From the IMG/VR virus record IMGVR_UViG_3300031566_000127, positions 1-41,642 of that record: 41,642 nucleotides of DNA; one strand, 5' to 3'. Position numbers and translations under genes: made by a program. How positions within the stretch are numbered: position 1 is the first letter of the stretch; each line of letters starts with the position of its first letter. Shown one piece after another: positions 957 to 16,058 of this stretch. The stretch comes from a virus. The notes under the pieces were generated by a model. It was not told the origin of the DNA and made no database searches. It saw nothing but the letters and a program-made list of their open reading frames with translations.

Positions 957-1793
957 TTAGAGTTGAATTTGAAACCGTTTGGCAGCCTTAGCGTATTCCT
1001 CGCTACTTATCCGTCCTTCCACATAAGCAAGTTCATAGTCATTCCACGTGCGAAGTCCGGCTACTGCCGTGCCAGTACCCCTCGCTTTAGCCCTCTGGCC
1101 TTTAACGGGAGTCCTTGACTCACCGCCTTCTTCCTCTTCCTCCTCCCCTTCACCTTCGCTTTCAGCTTTAGGTGACTTGGAGGCTATATCCTTCATCCTT
1201 GCAAGGCTGTAAGTTGTGTGACCATCCTGGTCCGTGTCAGACCCTATCTGAAGTAGAAGGTCAGCAGTTAAGCTACATCCTTGGGCTAATTCCTTAGCTT
1301 CTTCCGTTGCCTCAAATTTAGCCGCTTTGTCTATAGCAGCCTGGTGCTGAGCTCTCTCCGCATTAAAGTCCGAGCGGTCCCGGGATAGTTTCATATAAGC
1401 ATCCTCATTCTGGTGCTTGAGTTTGAGAGCACTGATAACCTCAGTATCCCCACCGGCAGCCTTTAGTTCTTTCTCTCTGTCTCTTGTTCTCATTGTCGAG
1501 ATGGTGGTTTCAAGGTCTGTTAACCTAGTCTTGTTACCATCCATCGTTCTCTTGAGGGTAGCGTTGACATCAAGGGAGTCTTTAAGCTGTCGGCCAAGGG
1601 CTGCCTTTTGAGCATTGACATACTGCTCTCTCTCAGCTTTGGTGTAGGTGAAGACCTCCTCCTGTGGTGTTTCCGATTGTTTCAGTCCTGTTTCCTGTTC
1701 GGGCATTGGTTCTGGAGTAGTTCCGAGTTCGCCTTCAGGAGTTGTTACCTCGTCCATAACGGCTACGTCAGTTTCGTCCTTCTTCTTAGCCAT
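957..1793 (-). CDS. Scaffolding protein
   Basis: A 278-residue, highly charged and largely helical protein directly before the capsid gene, the usual place for a head scaffold. It has an acidic, Pro- and Thr-rich N-terminus, a long coiled-coil-like centre (about residues 50-160), a run of Glu near residues 212-222, and a C-terminus that includes WNDYELAYVEGRISSEEYA, which could be the coat-binding tail. AGGAGG precedes the ATG. The assignment rests on composition and synteny, because scaffold sequences diverge quickly. Its leader contains an intrinsic terminator and a structured RNA. Confidence 0.75.
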   Translation of the reverse strand: MAKKKDETDVAVMDEVTTPEGELGTTPEPMPEQETGLKQSETPQEEVFTYTKAEREQYVNAQKAALGRQLKDSLDVNATLKRTMDGNKTRLTDLETTISTMRTRDREKELKAAGGDTEVISALKLKHQNEDAYMKLSRDRSDFNAERAQHQAAIDKAAKFEATEEAKELAQGCSLTADLLLQIGSDTDQDGHTTYSLARMKDIASKSPKAESEGEGEEEEEEGGESRTPVKGQRAKARGTGTAVAGLRTWNDYELAYVEGRISSEEYAKAAKRFQIQL

Positions 1794-1816
1794 TGATTCC
1801 TCCTAAGTTTATTTAA

Positions 1817-1853
1817 TAAAAAAAGCAGCCTAAACCTTTCGGTTCAAACTGCT
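1817..1853 (-). terminator. Intrinsic terminator in the scaffold-capsid leader
   Basis: On the minus strand a 13-bp stem (AGCAGTTTGAACC with GGTTTAGGCTGCT, 10 Watson-Crick and 3 G-U pairs) is closed by a GAAA tetraloop and followed at once by seven T residues. It ends only about 24 bases before the scaffold start codon. A terminator here would shut off scaffold and capsid unless it is bypassed, which suggests a regulated switch. Confidence 0.8.
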
Positions 1854-2006
1854 CAGTTGTTCTGTCACAGTGTAACTTATTCTATTGTTAAAGTGCTATA
1901 TGCCAGCTAGTAGCCTATGTCCTTACTACACCCAGGAGCTTATCCCTGTAGCTGTTCAGGCTGCTCATACTTACTAGAATATAGCCCTTTCGGGTAGCTG
2001 GCACTT
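1824..2006 (-). promoter_or_regulatory. Candidate attenuator RNA with terminator/antiterminator choice
   Basis: An upstream structured domain (2006-1891) is closed by TAGCTGGC/GCCAGCTA plus ACTT/AAGT with a bulge. It contains a CCC-GAAA-GGG hairpin and a CTACA/TGTAG hairpin. Inside it lies TGAGCAGCCTGAAC (1967-1954), a near copy (12 of 14) of the terminator 5' arm TGAGCAGTTTGAAC (1855-1842). AGCAGCCTGAAC can pair over 12 bases (11 Watson-Crick, 1 G-U) with the terminator 3' arm GTTTAGGCTGCT (1835-1824), and this would prevent terminator folding. The ligand or trigger is unknown and I recognise no established RNA class. Confidence 0.65.
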
Positions 2007-2020
2007 GTGTTATCTCTTTT

Positions 2021-2152
2021 TCATAACTTAATACTTTCCTTAATCTTCTCCACTCTTACTGGTTCCCCTTCCTCAGTGTGTACCTCAACCACCCCATATT
2101 TATTATCACGCAATAACTCTAAGAGCTTACGCTCCCTTATACTTACTAGCAT
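2021..2152 (-). CDS. Small charged protein, 43 aa, unknown function
   Basis: A 43-residue protein starting MLVSIRERKLLELLRDN and ending KIKESIKL. It is rich in Glu, Lys and Arg and looks like a folded helix-strand protein. The ATG at 2152 lies inside the 3' end of the HNH gene in another frame, with AAGGA four bases before it. It ends 15 bases before the structured leader RNA. I do not recognise the family. Its place suggests it is co-transcribed with the HNH gene and could act on the downstream switch, but that is only inferred from position. Confidence 0.6.
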   Translation of the reverse strand: MLVSIRERKLLELLRDNKYGVVEVHTEEGEPVRVEKIKESIKL

Positions 2153-2642
2153 ATTCCTTAAAATCTCTTTTGTCAAGTCCAATAATTCCTAAGTGTATTT
2201 TCTTGTGGCAAGATGAGCAAATCCAAGTAACTTTTAATGGGTCAGAGTAATCTTCGTGATGCCCTGACAATTTTGTTTTCCTACCACAACCTTCACAAAG
2301 TAATGGCTTTATAACTTTACCTATCTTTACTGCATACCGTAATAACCATGACGCTCTTAACCTATCTGGATGCTCTTGTCCCCATTCAAGAATACCCTCC
2401 ATATAATTATCGGCACGATTCCGACCATTCTTGGCATACCACTCTTTATAAAACTTAGCCTGCTTCTCCTTATATCCTAACTTTGCCCTTGTCCGTGCAT
2501 GAGCTTCCTTAGTTTCTTCAGGATGTGCTACTTGATATGCAGTAACTCGTTTGCTAATACACCCCTTACACCTACTCCTATTATAAGGATAAAAATTGAC
2601 TTCTCGGTTTTCACCACATGTAAGACATTTACATTTTTTCAT
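2127..2642 (-). CDS. HNH endonuclease
   Basis: A 171-residue protein with an N-terminal zinc-binding region (CKCLTCGENREV, then CKGC) and a C-terminal HNH fold: CEGCG, LSGHHEDY, and CSSCHKKIH (about residues 115-150). These residues form the structural zinc site and the beta-beta-alpha metal nuclease site typical of phage HNH enzymes, many of which act as free-standing homing endonucleases. It sits between the giant virion gene and the scaffold gene, just behind a strong promoter. Only the ATG at 2642 fits, with AAGG three bases upstream. Confidence 0.85.
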   Translation of the reverse strand: MKKCKCLTCGENREVNFYPYNRSRCKGCISKRVTAYQVAHPEETKEAHARTRAKLGYKEKQAKFYKEWYAKNGRNRADNYMEGILEWGQEHPDRLRASWLLRYAVKIGKVIKPLLCEGCGRKTKLSGHHEDYSDPLKVTWICSSCHKKIHLGIIGLDKRDFKEYASKYKGA

Positions 2643-2648
2643 ACCTTA

Positions 2649-2677
2649 ATGATATACAATTAAGGCTTGAATGTCAA
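2649..2677 (-). promoter_or_regulatory. Sigma70-type promoter for the HNH-scaffold-capsid segment
   Basis: TTGACA (2677-2672), a 17-base spacer and TATCAT (2654-2649), which matches the -10 consensus in five of six bases. It lies in the short gap after the giant gene's stop codon. The expected start point is at or next to the HNH start codon, so the HNH message may be nearly leaderless. The promoter can supply extra transcripts for the scaffold and capsid genes and feeds directly into the attenuator. Confidence 0.7.
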
Positions 2678-2682
2678 GTGCC

Positions 2683-5600
2683 TTACCTTAATCCACTTAA
2701 TCCTGTCATTAGACTCTCAAGCAATTCCCTAAATTCACTCTCCCTCTTAGCTACATCTTCAAGGAATCTTTCAGTTGGAGTTATTCTAAGTCGCCTTCTC
2801 TGCTCTGACATTGTAGTTGTCCATATTCCAGCAAGGACACCCCATTCATCTAGCTCAGGATTCTCCAACCTATAGGTATCTTTTTGAGTCTGGAAGGGAA
2901 ACTCATTATAGACCAGCCATTTTACAAACACTTCCCTCGAAGGAACTCTACTGAAATCCAAAGGCTCCAACCCCAGTAAGCCGAGATATACCTGCTCGTA
3001 GAAATTGGGGCGTTCCATCAGGAACCAGTCATCTTCATACCACCTATCTTGATTAGTTGCCTCCTTCCAGTTATCAGGTTTCCCCTCTGTCATAATTGAA
3101 GTGAAGCCTACATAAGCATCAATATGAGTTTCAGGAACGAACTTACCATAACCATTTCTTCTTATCTCAGCTAAGCCAAACTCTGTGAGCTTGCCCTGCT
3201 CATCAAACCGCATAGCCTGGCGAGTCCTGTTCCTCTCATCCACATCCTCAATATAATAAGGGGATGCACTCTGACTCAAACCAGTCACCTTGTCAAAGTC
3301 CTCTTTGAACTGGTCATAAATGTCATCATATTGGACAGCAGGCACATCCTCTGGCTTAGGAATATCTATACCGGCTAGTTCGTGCATTGCCCGAGCAAAG
3401 CCAGGGTTATCCAGTAGCATCCGCTCCTGTCTAAAGCCCCTGGCTCCTAAGTCGTAGTAAGCTAAATAATTGTCTATCTCTGTACTTGGGAACTCCATAC
3501 TATAGGCATCACGCTTGCGTCTAGCAATAGCATACTGGGGGTTCGCATCAAGGTAATCTAATCTCGCCTCCCTATTCTCAGAGTCAATAGCGTCATACTC
3601 CGCATCTTGAGTCGCCCAATCCACATTGATACGCAGGACTGGCTCACGCTGTAGGAGTTCTTCCTTTCTATCCTTGAGCAGTTCATTGGCTATTGCCCAG
3701 TCATAGGTATCGGGGTTATCAATCAACCACAGCAATGCCTCAGAACTGCCTGGTTCAAACTCATCAATCGTATTGCCTCGTTCCACCCATTTCCCCACAA
3801 TATCCTCGGTAGCCCCGTTCTCATATGCCTCAATGCGTCTGAGGTCATCAACCCACAACGGATTATCAAGTTTATACTGCTTGCGTTCCTCGTCAGTTTC
3901 CAGAGCATCGAACTCATCAAACAACTCACGATTTTTAATCTTGAGTTCCAGTGCTGCTATCGGAGTTTCTATCGGGTCAAAACCCAGAGCCTCTCGAAGG
4001 TTATCATCCTGTGCCAGAATAAGCTGTGCCTCCCAACTATTCCAACTACGCTTGTAAACTTCCTCTTGATACTTGAAGTAAGTTTTCTCAGAGCCTTCAG
4101 GAGGTAGCCAAGTTGAAAGGTGAGCGGTGTCAACACCATACTCTTCACACCACTTAATAATAAAGTCGTATGCTTTCTGTGTTTGTATCTTACCACCGTA
4201 ACCCCACATAGCAAGCAGGGCATCATCTTCAGGGCTTTCGAGTCGCCAACTAGAACGCCATTCCTTAGATAGAGCATCATACTTTACTGCAAATGCTTCC
4301 TTATCTTTACCTATTAGAGACCAATAATCCTGAAGGAGACCAAAGTTTTTAACCAGTTCATTGTCCTTCAAATCTTTCTTGTTAGCCTCTATGTATTCCT
4401 TGATAACCTCAACCCTCTCATCCTTTGTCTTAGCCGTGTTAAACTTTTCCCATAGTTCGACTACTTCAGCTTCCTTCTCATCCGGGTCAGGGAATAGGAA
4501 GTTAGCAATATCATACTCATCCATATTGATAATTTTCTCTGGTGGTAGATTCTCATAATGTTCTCTACTTGCTTCAGCTTTTCTGAATCCATCAAGTATC
4601 GGTGATACAGATTTATTAAATCGCTTGTCTCCTACTGATTGCCTAATATCTCTGATGTCTGAGGCAAGGTCTCCAAAGTCATACCTCATTCCATCTTCAT
4701 CAATCTCACCGAGTTTAGCAAGGTTATCTTCTACCTCTGAGTTAATATCAAGCCTGCCTATCAGTATGGGGATATTAAGATACTCCCACCATTTCGCTTT
4801 CTTTTCCTTGCTTTCATCAAGCCTATCAATATACTCACGCCCACCTTCTGTTTGATAAGGCCCCATAGAGATTGCCTTTAGCCACTCATCAGGTCGGACT
4901 TCAAACTTCGGCTTTCCCTTAACATCTTCCATCGCACCCTTTAACACAGCTTCTATTCCATCCAACATTCTGTTTATCTGTGTCCCACCAAAGGGGAAGT
5001 GATAATTGAGAACCCATCTTTTTATTCTTGTGTAGTCATCATACTTTACTGCATCACGAAAACCTGTCCAGAAGTCGTTAATATACTTGGCGGGTAGGGG
5101 AAGATACCAAGCATCCCCAGGGTCTACAGCACCTTGTAAGATAGCAAACATAGGAATAAAGGAGGAAACTATCCACGGTTTTCTATTAGTCAATTTATCT
5201 ATGGCAAAATTGATAACCATAATACTAATCAGGAAACTCGTTATAAGCATAAGTCGTCTGCTAATGGTAGCCTTTCCATCAGCAGAGGTAGCAGAGATTG
5301 TATTGTAAGCACCAGCTCTGCCAACCCTGATGAAGTTCATCTCACGGATATAGTTCATCGCCTGAATGGTGAAAGTCTGGAATGGGAACACCGCACCAAC
5401 AGCCTTTGACCTGAGCACAGCAGGAACATTCTCATAGTTATACATTGACTGAGTTTTCGCTCCCATCTTTGAGGCATACTCCACAAGTTCCTGCCCTCTG
5501 AACCCTAACTTCATCCCTTTATAATAACCAGCACGAATAGATATTCCAGTTAAAAGAGACTCAATAGTGTTGGTAATAAACGAGGCATAATACTCAGCCT

Positions 5601-13644: not shown

Positions 13645-13806
13645 TCACTCTCGACCCCGTTTCCTCATGTACGTTATTGTACAATATATAAATATTGCAA
13701 AAATTGCTAACCCTGTTTCAACGTCACCATCCAATATAATAGTTGCACCAGCATAACCAATGAAACCAGAAAGGAATATACCCAAAAGATTTATAGATAA
13801 TTTCAT
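13645..13806 (-). CDS. Small membrane protein with two helices, 53 aa
   Basis: Starts MKLSINLLGIFLSGFIGYAG and has two hydrophobic segments (about residues 5-25 and 31-46), ending in the positive tail RKRGRE. The layout resembles small holins, but it lies between terminase and portal rather than in the lysis block. The start is fixed by a TAATG overlap with the TerL stop. The function is open; holin-like or a host-membrane effector are both possible. Confidence 0.65.
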   Translation of the reverse strand: MKLSINLLGIFLSGFIGYAGATIILDGDVETGLAIFAIFIYCTITYMRKRGRE

Positions 13807-16058
13807 TATACCCTCCTTACAACTGGGGCAAGCTCAGCATCATCACCGAAAGCTCCAGTTCCTATCGGATTGAACTGACTTACCAGATACCTCTCAGAAT
13901 CCATCAGATGATAAATTGACTTGTTTTCTATCTTGTCAGTGGCGTTATACATATCATCAAGTTCCCGACTGTAGGATTGCTTCTCGGAGATGTAGTTCGG
14001 GCAGGTAGAAAAGACCTTTTTCTTACCCAGTTTCTCGTAACCATAAACTTTCTGAATACCAGCCTCAACGCTTTTTTCTAATGGTTTGTCTATCCGCCAA
14101 CCCGCCTGAGTGAAATCACCTCGCCATCCCTCCTCGGTCTGTGAGCCACCGTATCTGGTATCAATCCGTTCTCCTCTTGACAAATCAATCCAGTTGGAAA
14201 CATGCTCAAAAGTAGACAGTCCGCTCATAACATATTCCCTGTAAATAAAAAGCTCTCCGGTAGCAGGGTTCATAGCTGCCCAAAGAGCTACGGTGTTTAC
14301 TGGCCCGAAGTCGTGTCCTACATATCTTGGCCAGTTTACAGGTATTTCAAAGGGGGGAATAACCTGAGTGGTAGAATCAAAGGCATTGTAAATCATACCA
14401 GCCGGTCTGCTGAAACGGCCTCTATGAAACATCTGGAACTTCCAATCAGGCATAGAGGCTTTCATCCGGTCATATTCCACTCTGGGGAATAAGGGATTTT
14501 CAGTAGAGTCGAACTGAATAACATCAATATCGGGGTCTGTCTTATTAAACCACGGGTCATATATCTCTGTCTTGAGCCATCCTAGCCCATACAGGGTAGT
14601 AGTATATAGCGTCCTTGCTTGATGGATAAGTGTACGTCTTTCATAGGCTTCGTGTGTTTCTCTCTTAAACTGCTTCTGACCGCAATTAGAGACGAGAATA
14701 CCATCCGCTATATAGTTGTGGTTTCCTTCAACCTCAAGATTGTAGACGAAACCATCTTTAGACAACCCTCCATCCAAGTCTCCACCATGTGATTTGAGAA
14801 GTGAAGATATGTCCATCCATTGAGAAAATACCATTCTTTCTTGTGAGGACTCGCTACATTTCCGACTTCTATGGCAATCTTTAGTGGTAATATCGCCACA
14901 TCTATCTTGTAGGAGTGCGGAAGCCAACCCTTGCCTGTCGCTACCACATATTCGCTGGAACATCCGAGAGCCTTCGCCAACCACTCCTGTCTCCAACTCC
15001 TCGGTCTGCCATTGCCCCCTAGTTCCCACAATCGTTGTTTCGTCATATGCCTTGACTGTCGTGTCTGTGATTGTGCCGAATGCGAGGAAAGTTCTCCCCC
15101 AGTCTGTCCCCAAGGGCGATTGGCTAGATTGGCATACCTTTGCCTCTGGCGTTCTGCTATTGCCTGCCCGTGCTCTGGATGCTCCTGAAAGTGCTTCTTC
15201 AAACTGGCAGATACTCTCGCATCGTGTTCCTGAGTCCGATGTCTGGCAGATTTCCTCATCTTTCGGAGAGTCTCTTCTGAATGTTTGAATCCTGCTTTTC
15301 TCATCTTTAATTACCTCCGCCCTAAGTATAGCATAGTTAGCAGAAGTAATCAAGTTATCAGCCCTTACATAACCATCTTTAGTCCAGACCTTATGGTTGC
15401 CTGTTAATCTCAGATTGCCTATCCTTAGAAGTGGTTTTCTTTGAGGGAGTTTTATCCACCGAACAATAGGTTTAAGACTCCATTCGTTATTAACGGTATC
15501 AAACGACCAAACCCGAATATGTAATTGCTTATCAACTATTTCAGAGATTGGCAAACTACCAACTTCAGTTTCTATTAAAGTCTCAGGAGCTACGCACTCA
15601 TCCAGCCAACCGCCTTTGACAGTTGCCGATTCCATTGATTCTGGATTCTGAGCAGAACAGATTATAATACGAGTAGGAATATCGGCGTCAGGGAAAAGAA
15701 CATAATCAGTTTCAGACCGCCTTGTTTGCTTGCTCCAGAAAGTAAATAGTTTTCTCTGCTCGCTGTAAGTTCCGTAGTGGAATAGGTCTTCAAAAACATA
15801 CAAAAGCTCTGGCAATAACTTGAGGGATAGTAATGGGAAAGTAGCAGTCCCAACAATGTAGTCACCTGGCCCCTTAGTCCGTATCTCCCTATCTAACCAG
15901 TGTGGACCATAGCAAGTCTTACCACCCTGACTACCAGCCAGCATAGCAACCTTCCGCTTCTTTGACCTGTGCGTTCTGGTCTGCCCTGGATGGAAGTTCA
16001 AACGCAGAGTGCCGTCCTTAATCTCACGGAAAGGCGGTGCTTTAGTTGCTGTTGTCAT
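13806..16058 (-). CDS. terL: Terminase large subunit interrupted by an intein
   Basis: A 750-codon frame made of a 446-residue terminase plus a 304-residue intein (residues 155-458). The ATPase half has Walker A AGSQGGKT (41-48) and Walker B ending GGWLDE (E154). The intein sits immediately after that glutamate, and the C-extein resumes with CGQKQFKRETHEAYERRTL. The nuclease half shows RYVGHDFGPVNTVALWAAM with the expected acidic residue. The enzyme powers DNA packaging and cuts the concatemer, so activity should depend on protein splicing. It lies downstream of terS, though about 2.4 kb of small genes separates them. Confidence 0.92.
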   Translation of the reverse strand: MTTATKAPPFREIKDGTLRLNFHPGQTRTHRSKKRKVAMLAGSQGGKTCYGPHWLDREIRTKGPGDYIVGTATFPLLSLKLLPELLYVFEDLFHYGTYSEQRKLFTFWSKQTRRSETDYVLFPDADIPTRIIICSAQNPESMESATVKGGWLDECVAPETLIETEVGSLPISEIVDKQLHIRVWSFDTVNNEWSLKPIVRWIKLPQRKPLLRIGNLRLTGNHKVWTKDGYVRADNLITSANYAILRAEVIKDEKSRIQTFRRDSPKDEEICQTSDSGTRCESICQFEEALSGASRARAGNSRTPEAKVCQSSQSPLGTDWGRTFLAFGTITDTTVKAYDETTIVGTRGQWQTEELETGVVGEGSRMFQRICGSDRQGLASALLQDRCGDITTKDCHRSRKCSESSQERMVFSQWMDISSLLKSHGGDLDGGLSKDGFVYNLEVEGNHNYIADGILVSNCGQKQFKRETHEAYERRTLIHQARTLYTTTLYGLGWLKTEIYDPWFNKTDPDIDVIQFDSTENPLFPRVEYDRMKASMPDWKFQMFHRGRFSRPAGMIYNAFDSTTQVIPPFEIPVNWPRYVGHDFGPVNTVALWAAMNPATGELFIYREYVMSGLSTFEHVSNWIDLSRGERIDTRYGGSQTEEGWRGDFTQAGWRIDKPLEKSVEAGIQKVYGYEKLGKKKVFSTCPNYISEKQSYSRELDDMYNATDKIENKSIYHLMDSERYLVSQFNPIGTGAFGDDAELAPVVRRV
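14685..15596 (-). mobile_element. Intein (Hint domain) within TerL
   Basis: A 304-residue intervening protein. It begins with Cys (CVAPETLIETEVGSLPISEI, block A) and has a block-B-like LTGNHKVWTKDGYVRADNL. It ends with YNLEVEGNHNYIADGILVSN (blocks F and G), giving terminal Asn before the +1 Cys. Blocks A and B lie in the first ~97 residues. The following ~170 residues have no recognisable domain in this frame and are low in hydrophobic pattern. That stretch also encodes an endonuclease in another frame. Site: between Glu and Cys of the Walker B motif, a conserved place favoured by inteins. Confidence 0.9.
14708..15304 (-). CDS. NUMOD3 + Vsr-like homing endonuclease, overlapping the intein out of frame
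   Basis: A 198-residue protein in the +1 frame relative to TerL and wholly inside the intein. It starts at ATG 15304 behind GGAGGTAATTAAAG. Its N-terminus has a NUMOD3-like DNA-binding repeat (GFKHSEETLRKMRKSARHRT). The C-terminus looks like the Vsr/DUF559 type of PD-(D/E)XK nuclease: YKIDVAILPLKIAIEVGN, then SPHKKEWYFLNGWTYLHFSN. Vsr-like homing enzymes are known from intron and intein settings. It stops at 14708, within intein block F, so about 198 codons are read in two frames. The good ribosome site argues for separate translation. Confidence 0.82.
   Translation of the reverse strand: MRKAGFKHSEETLRKMRKSARHRTQEHDARVSASLKKHFQEHPEHGQAIAERQRQRYANLANRPWGQTGGELSSHSAQSQTRQSRHMTKQRLWELGGNGRPRSWRQEWLAKALGCSSEYVVATGKGWLPHSYKIDVAILPLKIAIEVGNVASPHKKEWYFLNGWTYLHFSNHMVETWMEGCLKMVSSTILRLKETTTI

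Follow-up and report, generated by a model that had tools for sequence, protein, structure and literature searches.

A probable nut-type antitermination leader with a Chloroflexota rRNA-type boxA before the virion genes of an environmental phage

The leader that precedes the scaffold and capsid genes of an IMG/VR virus record (41,642 bases, the whole of which was analysed and is called the window here) is probably a nut-type site for processive antitermination, in which a boxA and a boxB-like hairpin stand before an intrinsic terminator guarding the virion genes. In the window, a promoter, a small ORF, a boxA of rRNA type, a hairpin, the terminator and the scaffold gene follow one another in this order, and both the hairpin and the terminator covary among relatives. 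The presence of a conserved boxA together with a boxB-like hairpin points to Nus-type processive antitermination. From this we infer that a Nus complex would overcome the terminator, that read-through would depend on Nus factors and that a phage factor may take part. The features are listed below from upstream to downstream:

9807-2683, minus strand: 2,374-aa virion-like gene, the gene upstream of the leader
2649..2677, minus strand: promoter-like TTGACA-17-TATCAT, directly past the stop of the upstream gene
2127-2642: HNH endonuclease gene (phrog_2340), inserted downstream of the virion-like gene and ahead of the small ORF
2148..2176, minus strand: promoter-like TTGACA-17-TATGCT, where the small ORF begins
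2021..2182, minus strand: small DUF2292/YezD-like ORF, 53 aa from TTG or 43 aa from the ATG at 2152
1901..2022, minus strand: folded domain of 122 nt, lying after the stop of the small ORF and before boxA
1954..1967, minus strand: near-copy of the terminator 5' arm, TGAGCAGCCTGAAC, proposed earlier as an antiterminator arm
1877..1896, minus strand: boxA GCACTTTAACAATAGAATAA, predicted NusB/NusE (S10) binding site, kept in the relatives L062, L070 and L077 and partly in L231
1864..1876, minus strand: spacer with a possible small hairpin, GUUAC-ACU-GUGAC (MFE), between boxA and the AACAA hairpin
1854..1864, minus strand: boxB-like hairpin CAG-AACAA-CUG with a 3-bp stem, adjoining the terminator
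1816..1854 (stem 1854-1823), minus strand: intrinsic terminator GAGCAGUUUGAACC-GAAA-GGUUUAGGCUGCUU plus T-run
1799..1804, minus strand: Shine-Dalgarno sequence AGGAGG of the scaffold gene, assigned by sequence
957..1793, minus strand: scaffold-like coiled-coil protein gene, the first gene past the terminator, with homologs in L061-L065
806-291, minus strand: LAGLIDADG ORF interrupting the capsid gene, between the capsid parts
41603-40908, minus strand: second part (exon) of the capsid gene, matching phage major capsid proteins at 25-31%

The window carries a 162-base repeat at both ends, with two mismatches, and the relative L061 spans the joint of the two ends; a circular or circularly permuted genome is therefore probable. 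Among the window proteins scanned, we recognised terminase subunits, a RecT-like protein and a helicase loader but no RNA polymerase, which makes it probable that the phage is transcribed by the polymerase of its host. The scaffold gene starts with the ATG at 1793 and is followed by the major capsid gene. Between 291 and 950 the capsid gene is broken by the LAGLIDADG ORF soon after its start, with group-I-intron-like flanks; Rfam at gathering score gave no intron match around this ORF, and a related LAGLIDADG ORF lies close to the capsid gene in L065. The terminase large subunit gene (13806-16058) apparently holds an intein-like insert (Pfam Intein_splicing, E 3.5e-5, below the cut-off).

The terminator consists of 14 pairs, a GAAA loop and a run of T, and it is the strongest terminator-like site on the minus strand in the first 20 kb of the window. 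As an earlier note on this DNA had stated, it lies close to the scaffold gene, with the T-run ending about 24 nt before the ATG. Across five leaders, compensatory changes were present at 9 of 15 consensus stem pairs, which argues that termination itself is under selection. With its stable stem, T-run and compensated conservation, the element at 1854-1823 has the sequence properties of an intrinsic terminator.

On both flanks of the leader L062 and the window are 98% identical, as far as the small ORF stop on one side and starting from the Shine-Dalgarno sequence on the other, but the leader itself has diverged strongly. The idea that this leader is unrelated sequence was rejected by global alignment to the window, in which its 3' part proved to be a diverged homolog (0/300 shuffles); the 5' part was borderline (17/300). 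The L062 terminator, GAGGUAGUUUGUCCU-CAGGGA-AGGAUGAGCUACCUC, differs from that of the window by compensatory changes, and a sequence island, TATAGCACYTTAACAAT, is kept upstream of it. Scanning for TATAGCACYTTAACAAT and then for gapped versions retrieved the same module in L070, L077/L080 and L231, where the island is followed by a spacer, GAACAAC or a similar sequence, a terminator, a Shine-Dalgarno sequence, a scaffold-like coiled-coil gene and a capsid gene; the capsid proteins of these phages are diverged. Conservation thus rests on five independent leaders, one of which (L231) is truncated, and what these diverged leaders have in common is a boxA, an AACAA hairpin, a terminator and the scaffold gene, in that order. 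The distant scaffold relatives L063-L065 have no small ORF, boxA island or terminator before the scaffold gene, and no relatives came up when viral sequences were scanned with the L065 scaffold.

The two promoter-like sequences of the window stand on either side of the inserted HNH gene, which is present in the window and L062 only and is missing from L070 and L077; the 3' end of this gene reaches into both the small ORF and the promoter at 2148..2176. The position of the other promoter, 2649..2677, also corresponds to that of the L077 and L070 promoters, as it would have stood before the HNH insertion. L077 has TTGACA-17-TATAAT (a 12/12 match) with the -35 element 153 nt upstream of boxA, and L070 has TTGACA-17-TACAAC with the -35 element 156 nt upstream. 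The small ORF resembles Pfam DUF2292 weakly (E 0.005, below the gathering cut-off). Homologs occupy the corresponding position in L062, in L077/L080 (E about 1e-8) and in L070 (E 3e-4). In all of these, and in the window, it ends at or near boxA; in L070 and L077 its stop codon falls within or adjoins the boxA island.

A unit running from promoter to terminator would release an RNA of about 170-320 nt, and its purpose might be to make a small noncoding RNA in which boxA acts as a Nus sponge or RNA-processing element. We regard this as very improbable, because the leaders compared share no conserved RNA structure other than boxA, the hairpin and the terminator, and their lengths vary widely. 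The variable domains of the leaders have no structure in common. In L231 a 161-nt stem-closed block lies within boxA (4018-4190), with the direct repeat ATTAACAA on either side, a pattern resembling an insertion that left a duplication.

The boxA of the window fits GCACYTTAACAANNNAATAA at 17/17 positions. Single-motif scans of large collections do yield chance matches, but a chance origin is extremely improbable here. With up to 3 mismatches allowed, the window has no other match (0.06 expected), and the same site stands before a terminator and scaffold gene in diverged phages. Furthermore, a gapped scan showed that AGCACYTTAACAA-N3-AATAA is enriched at exactly three bases, which account for 18 of 54 gap-pattern matches, and matches to this pattern lie frequently in phage 5' leaders.

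When bacterial and archaeal genomes were scanned, many matches fell in Chloroflexota, several of them immediately upstream of 23S rRNA. Using 23S starts from Dehalococcoidia and Anaerolineae genomes and loci, we found the best match, GCACYTTAACAACTGAAYAR or a close form, 52-140 nt before 23S in 21/21 leaders, and it was equalled by 0-1 of 100 shuffles; 19 of the 21 starts were located without the motif, and L289 and L315 entered the set through the motif itself. By its sequence, then, the phage motif is the rRNA-type boxA of Chloroflexota. In gammaproteobacteria boxA takes the form GCTCTTTAACA. Compared with the published gammaproteobacterial motif, GYTCTTTAANA (Baniulyte et al., PMC5725501), the phage boxA has A for T at position 3 and Y at position 5.

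Because the phage boxA matches that of Chloroflexota rRNA operons, the host is probably chloroflexotan, with the limit that the motif also precedes rRNA in a few groups outside this phylum. A search for the module in 400 Chloroflexota genomes gave two low-complexity or chance-type matches, equal to the control level, as expected if such phages do not integrate. In three Anaerolineales or related genomes (L302, L333 and L339), an integrase-like gene has a boxA in its 5' leader (MAKKRANHEGTIFKK...). In six other phages (L090, L099, L127, L088, L108 and L122), AGCACYTTAACAANNNAATAA immediately precedes a gene's Shine-Dalgarno sequence and no terminator is present; the first three encode similar small proteins. 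The genome of L063, which is without boxA before its scaffold gene, carries TTAACAATAGAATAA close to the stop codon of a 320-aa gene (L414, around 1501-1515).

Downstream of boxA, AACAA is invariant in 5/5 leaders, 13-17 bases from AATAA. In four of the five it forms the loop of a stem of at least three Watson-Crick pairs (CAG/CUG, CGA/UCG, UUGG/CCAA and UGG/CCA), an arrangement for which three Watson-Crick flanking pairs at AACAA have a background frequency of 1.85%. Both sides of the stem have changed at all three pairs; 86.7% of cells are paired (3/500 shuffles), and the covariation score is 0.80 (2/500 shuffles). The counterparts of the spacer hairpin in relatives are short, with 3-4 bp only. 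The AACAA hairpin is likely, but not proven, to be a boxB, because L231 breaks two of the three pairs and the loop was picked after inspection of the data. A reading of the AATAA-hairpin-AACAAC order as CRISPR tracrRNA-like was dropped once boxA had been recognised.

The earlier note had proposed a terminator/antiterminator switch in which an upstream arm competes with the terminator, and had overlooked both boxA and the AACAA hairpin. The repeat on which this was based is genuine: TGAGCAGCCTGAAC (1967-1954) matches the terminator 5' arm at 12/14 positions, and because of the CC-for-TT differences it meets the terminator 3' arm with G-C pairs at two positions where the 5' arm itself makes G-U pairs. 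Pairing of the 164-nt upstream region with that 3' arm reached -22.5 kcal/mol at best, a value equalled by 2/500 dinucleotide shuffles, so the copy is above chance in the window. It pairs with the 3' arm over 13 bp, and in the MFE fold it is sequestered by AGGCU within the folded domain. These features would suit a riboswitch or attenuator in which pairing of the copy with the 3' arm prevents the terminator, under a signal that frees or hides the copy. However, such a mechanism is quite improbable. The strong competition attributed to the copy was not borne out by equilibrium energies, as the forced antiterminator fold reached -50.4 against -58.9 for the terminator fold, 8.5 kcal/mol worse. 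The closing stem of the domain, described as 12 bp, has 10 bp in the MFE fold (GUGCCAGCUA/UAGCUGGCAU), and the domain as a whole is of ordinary stability (122 nt, z -1.18, 25/200 shuffles equally stable); the full leader, terminator included, has z = -2.6.

Comparison with relatives tells against the competing arms as well. The folded domain is absent from L070 and L077 and diverged in L062. Although the two terminator arms covary with each other in L062, the upstream arm is without a counterpart there (best duplex -12.9 kcal/mol, 334/500 shuffles as good), and compensatory changes do not extend across three arms. The third arm is also wanting in L070 (56/500 shuffles) and L231 (362/500), and L077 has only a weak match, which lies elsewhere, inside the small ORF (10/500). 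Rfam searches with the window, L062 and L231 leaders, at gathering score and at E up to 10, returned chance matches only. The relatives compared thus have neither the conserved aptamer nor the conserved competing arms of a transcription-terminating riboswitch, and the suggestion of a ligand-like signal found no support. Control of termination ahead of the scaffold and capsid genes, the other part of the proposal, stands: the leader is controlled by a terminator and contains conserved RNA elements of a kind compatible with antitermination. The earlier interpretation was in this sense partly supported.

Other identities for the folded domain were also considered. A tRNA or tRNA-like domain was rejected on a negative ARAGORN result, and a group I intron or mobile ribozyme because the domain is too short and has no core. 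The HNH endonuclease was rejected as the partner of a structured RNA because its gene is absent in L070 and L077. A search with the leader DNA against annotated phages gave no match or chance matches, and the 16-mer of the upstream copy had 59 matches in viral contigs, about chance level, none with further leader.

Antitermination at a nut-type site could proceed as follows. Polymerase would start at the host-type promoter or arrive from upstream genes, and would transcribe in turn the small DUF2292-like ORF, boxA, the boxB-like AACAA hairpin and the terminator. Host NusB/NusE would bind at boxA, and an antitermination complex would be built by NusA/NusG, either on their own or together with a phage factor. 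Where the complex formed, the terminator would be read through and the scaffold, capsid and tail genes expressed; where it did not, transcription would stop and a short leader RNA would be released. Read-through might need nothing beyond host factors, might involve a phage protein (the DUF2292-like one is a candidate) or might be brought about by the RNA on its own. No small, arginine-rich ORF resembling N and preceded by a ribosome-binding site turned up in a crude screen. It is possible, though doubtful, that Chloroflexota phages have a self-contained switch for late genes, made of host boxA and the boxB-like AACAA hairpin and acting against the adjoining intrinsic terminator, for which the small DUF2292-like protein is the hairpin-binding factor, or which has no phage factor.

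Weighing against the nut-type reading are the boxB-like stem of 3 bp, the lack of an N-like ORF, the missing leader in L063-L065 and the fact that rRNA-type boxA acts mainly against Rho and, when no phage factor is present, less strongly against intrinsic terminators. In favour of the reading, rRNA-type complexes also lower intrinsic termination in vitro (PMC6614801). A different possibility is that boxA shields the untranslated leader from Rho and that the terminator is a constitutive, partial one that sets the ratio of upstream to virion transcripts. The boxA comes right after a stop codon, where Rho could load, and rRNA-type boxA complexes counteract Rho (PMC6614801, PMC5725501). However, every independent leader has an intrinsic terminator within about 40 nt of boxA, which suggests that the two act jointly, and we consider Rho protection unlikely.

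The nut-type reading can be compared with several known systems. In rRNA sites boxB precedes boxA, and in lambda nut boxA precedes boxB. The phage leader is like lambda N/nut, where Nus factors read through terminators, in having a boxA and then a small boxB-like hairpin with a five-base loop; unlike it, the leader would control late virion genes, abuts a terminator, uses a Chloroflexota rRNA-type boxA and a 3-bp stem, and comes without an N-like protein in our crude screen, in which a divergent factor could have been missed. Its boxA is the same as in the 23S leaders of Chloroflexota, but the order boxB-boxA-boxC of rrn sites is absent: the hairpin comes after boxA, no boxC was recognised, a terminator lies directly downstream and the RNA is an mRNA leader, not an rRNA leader. 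The lambda Q/qut system (the pR'-tR' late leader) likewise has a host-type promoter, a short leader and a terminator guarding late virion genes. However, Q acts via a DNA element (PMC7171158) and a paused polymerase, whereas the conserved signal of the phage leader is a boxA RNA, and the window proteins scanned gave no match to the Q family. HK022 put is also a cis-acting leader RNA that makes polymerase ignore terminators, as the phage leader would, and there the RNA alone can suffice (PMC9378689), but put has two stem-loops and needs no boxA. Finally, suhB and other mRNAs carry boxA in their 5' leaders (Baniulyte 2017, PMC5725501); there boxA regulates a cellular gene via Rho and translation, and here it is associated with a terminator and virion genes.

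Among phages, processive antitermination with boxA is known chiefly from lambdoid coliphages. We found no report of boxA in Chloroflexota phages in the literature searched, with subscription journals outside its scope. The analysis yields a leader that lends itself to testing, defines a consensus for the boxA of Chloroflexota and suggests what the small DUF2292-like protein might do, and it illustrates that a real repeat-arm observation can mislead on mechanism when relatives go uncompared. If the nut-type reading is true, unrelated environmental phages have placed the antitermination signal of host rRNA before a terminator that guards their virion genes, and nut-type signalling would be combined with a position before late genes, where lambda uses Q.
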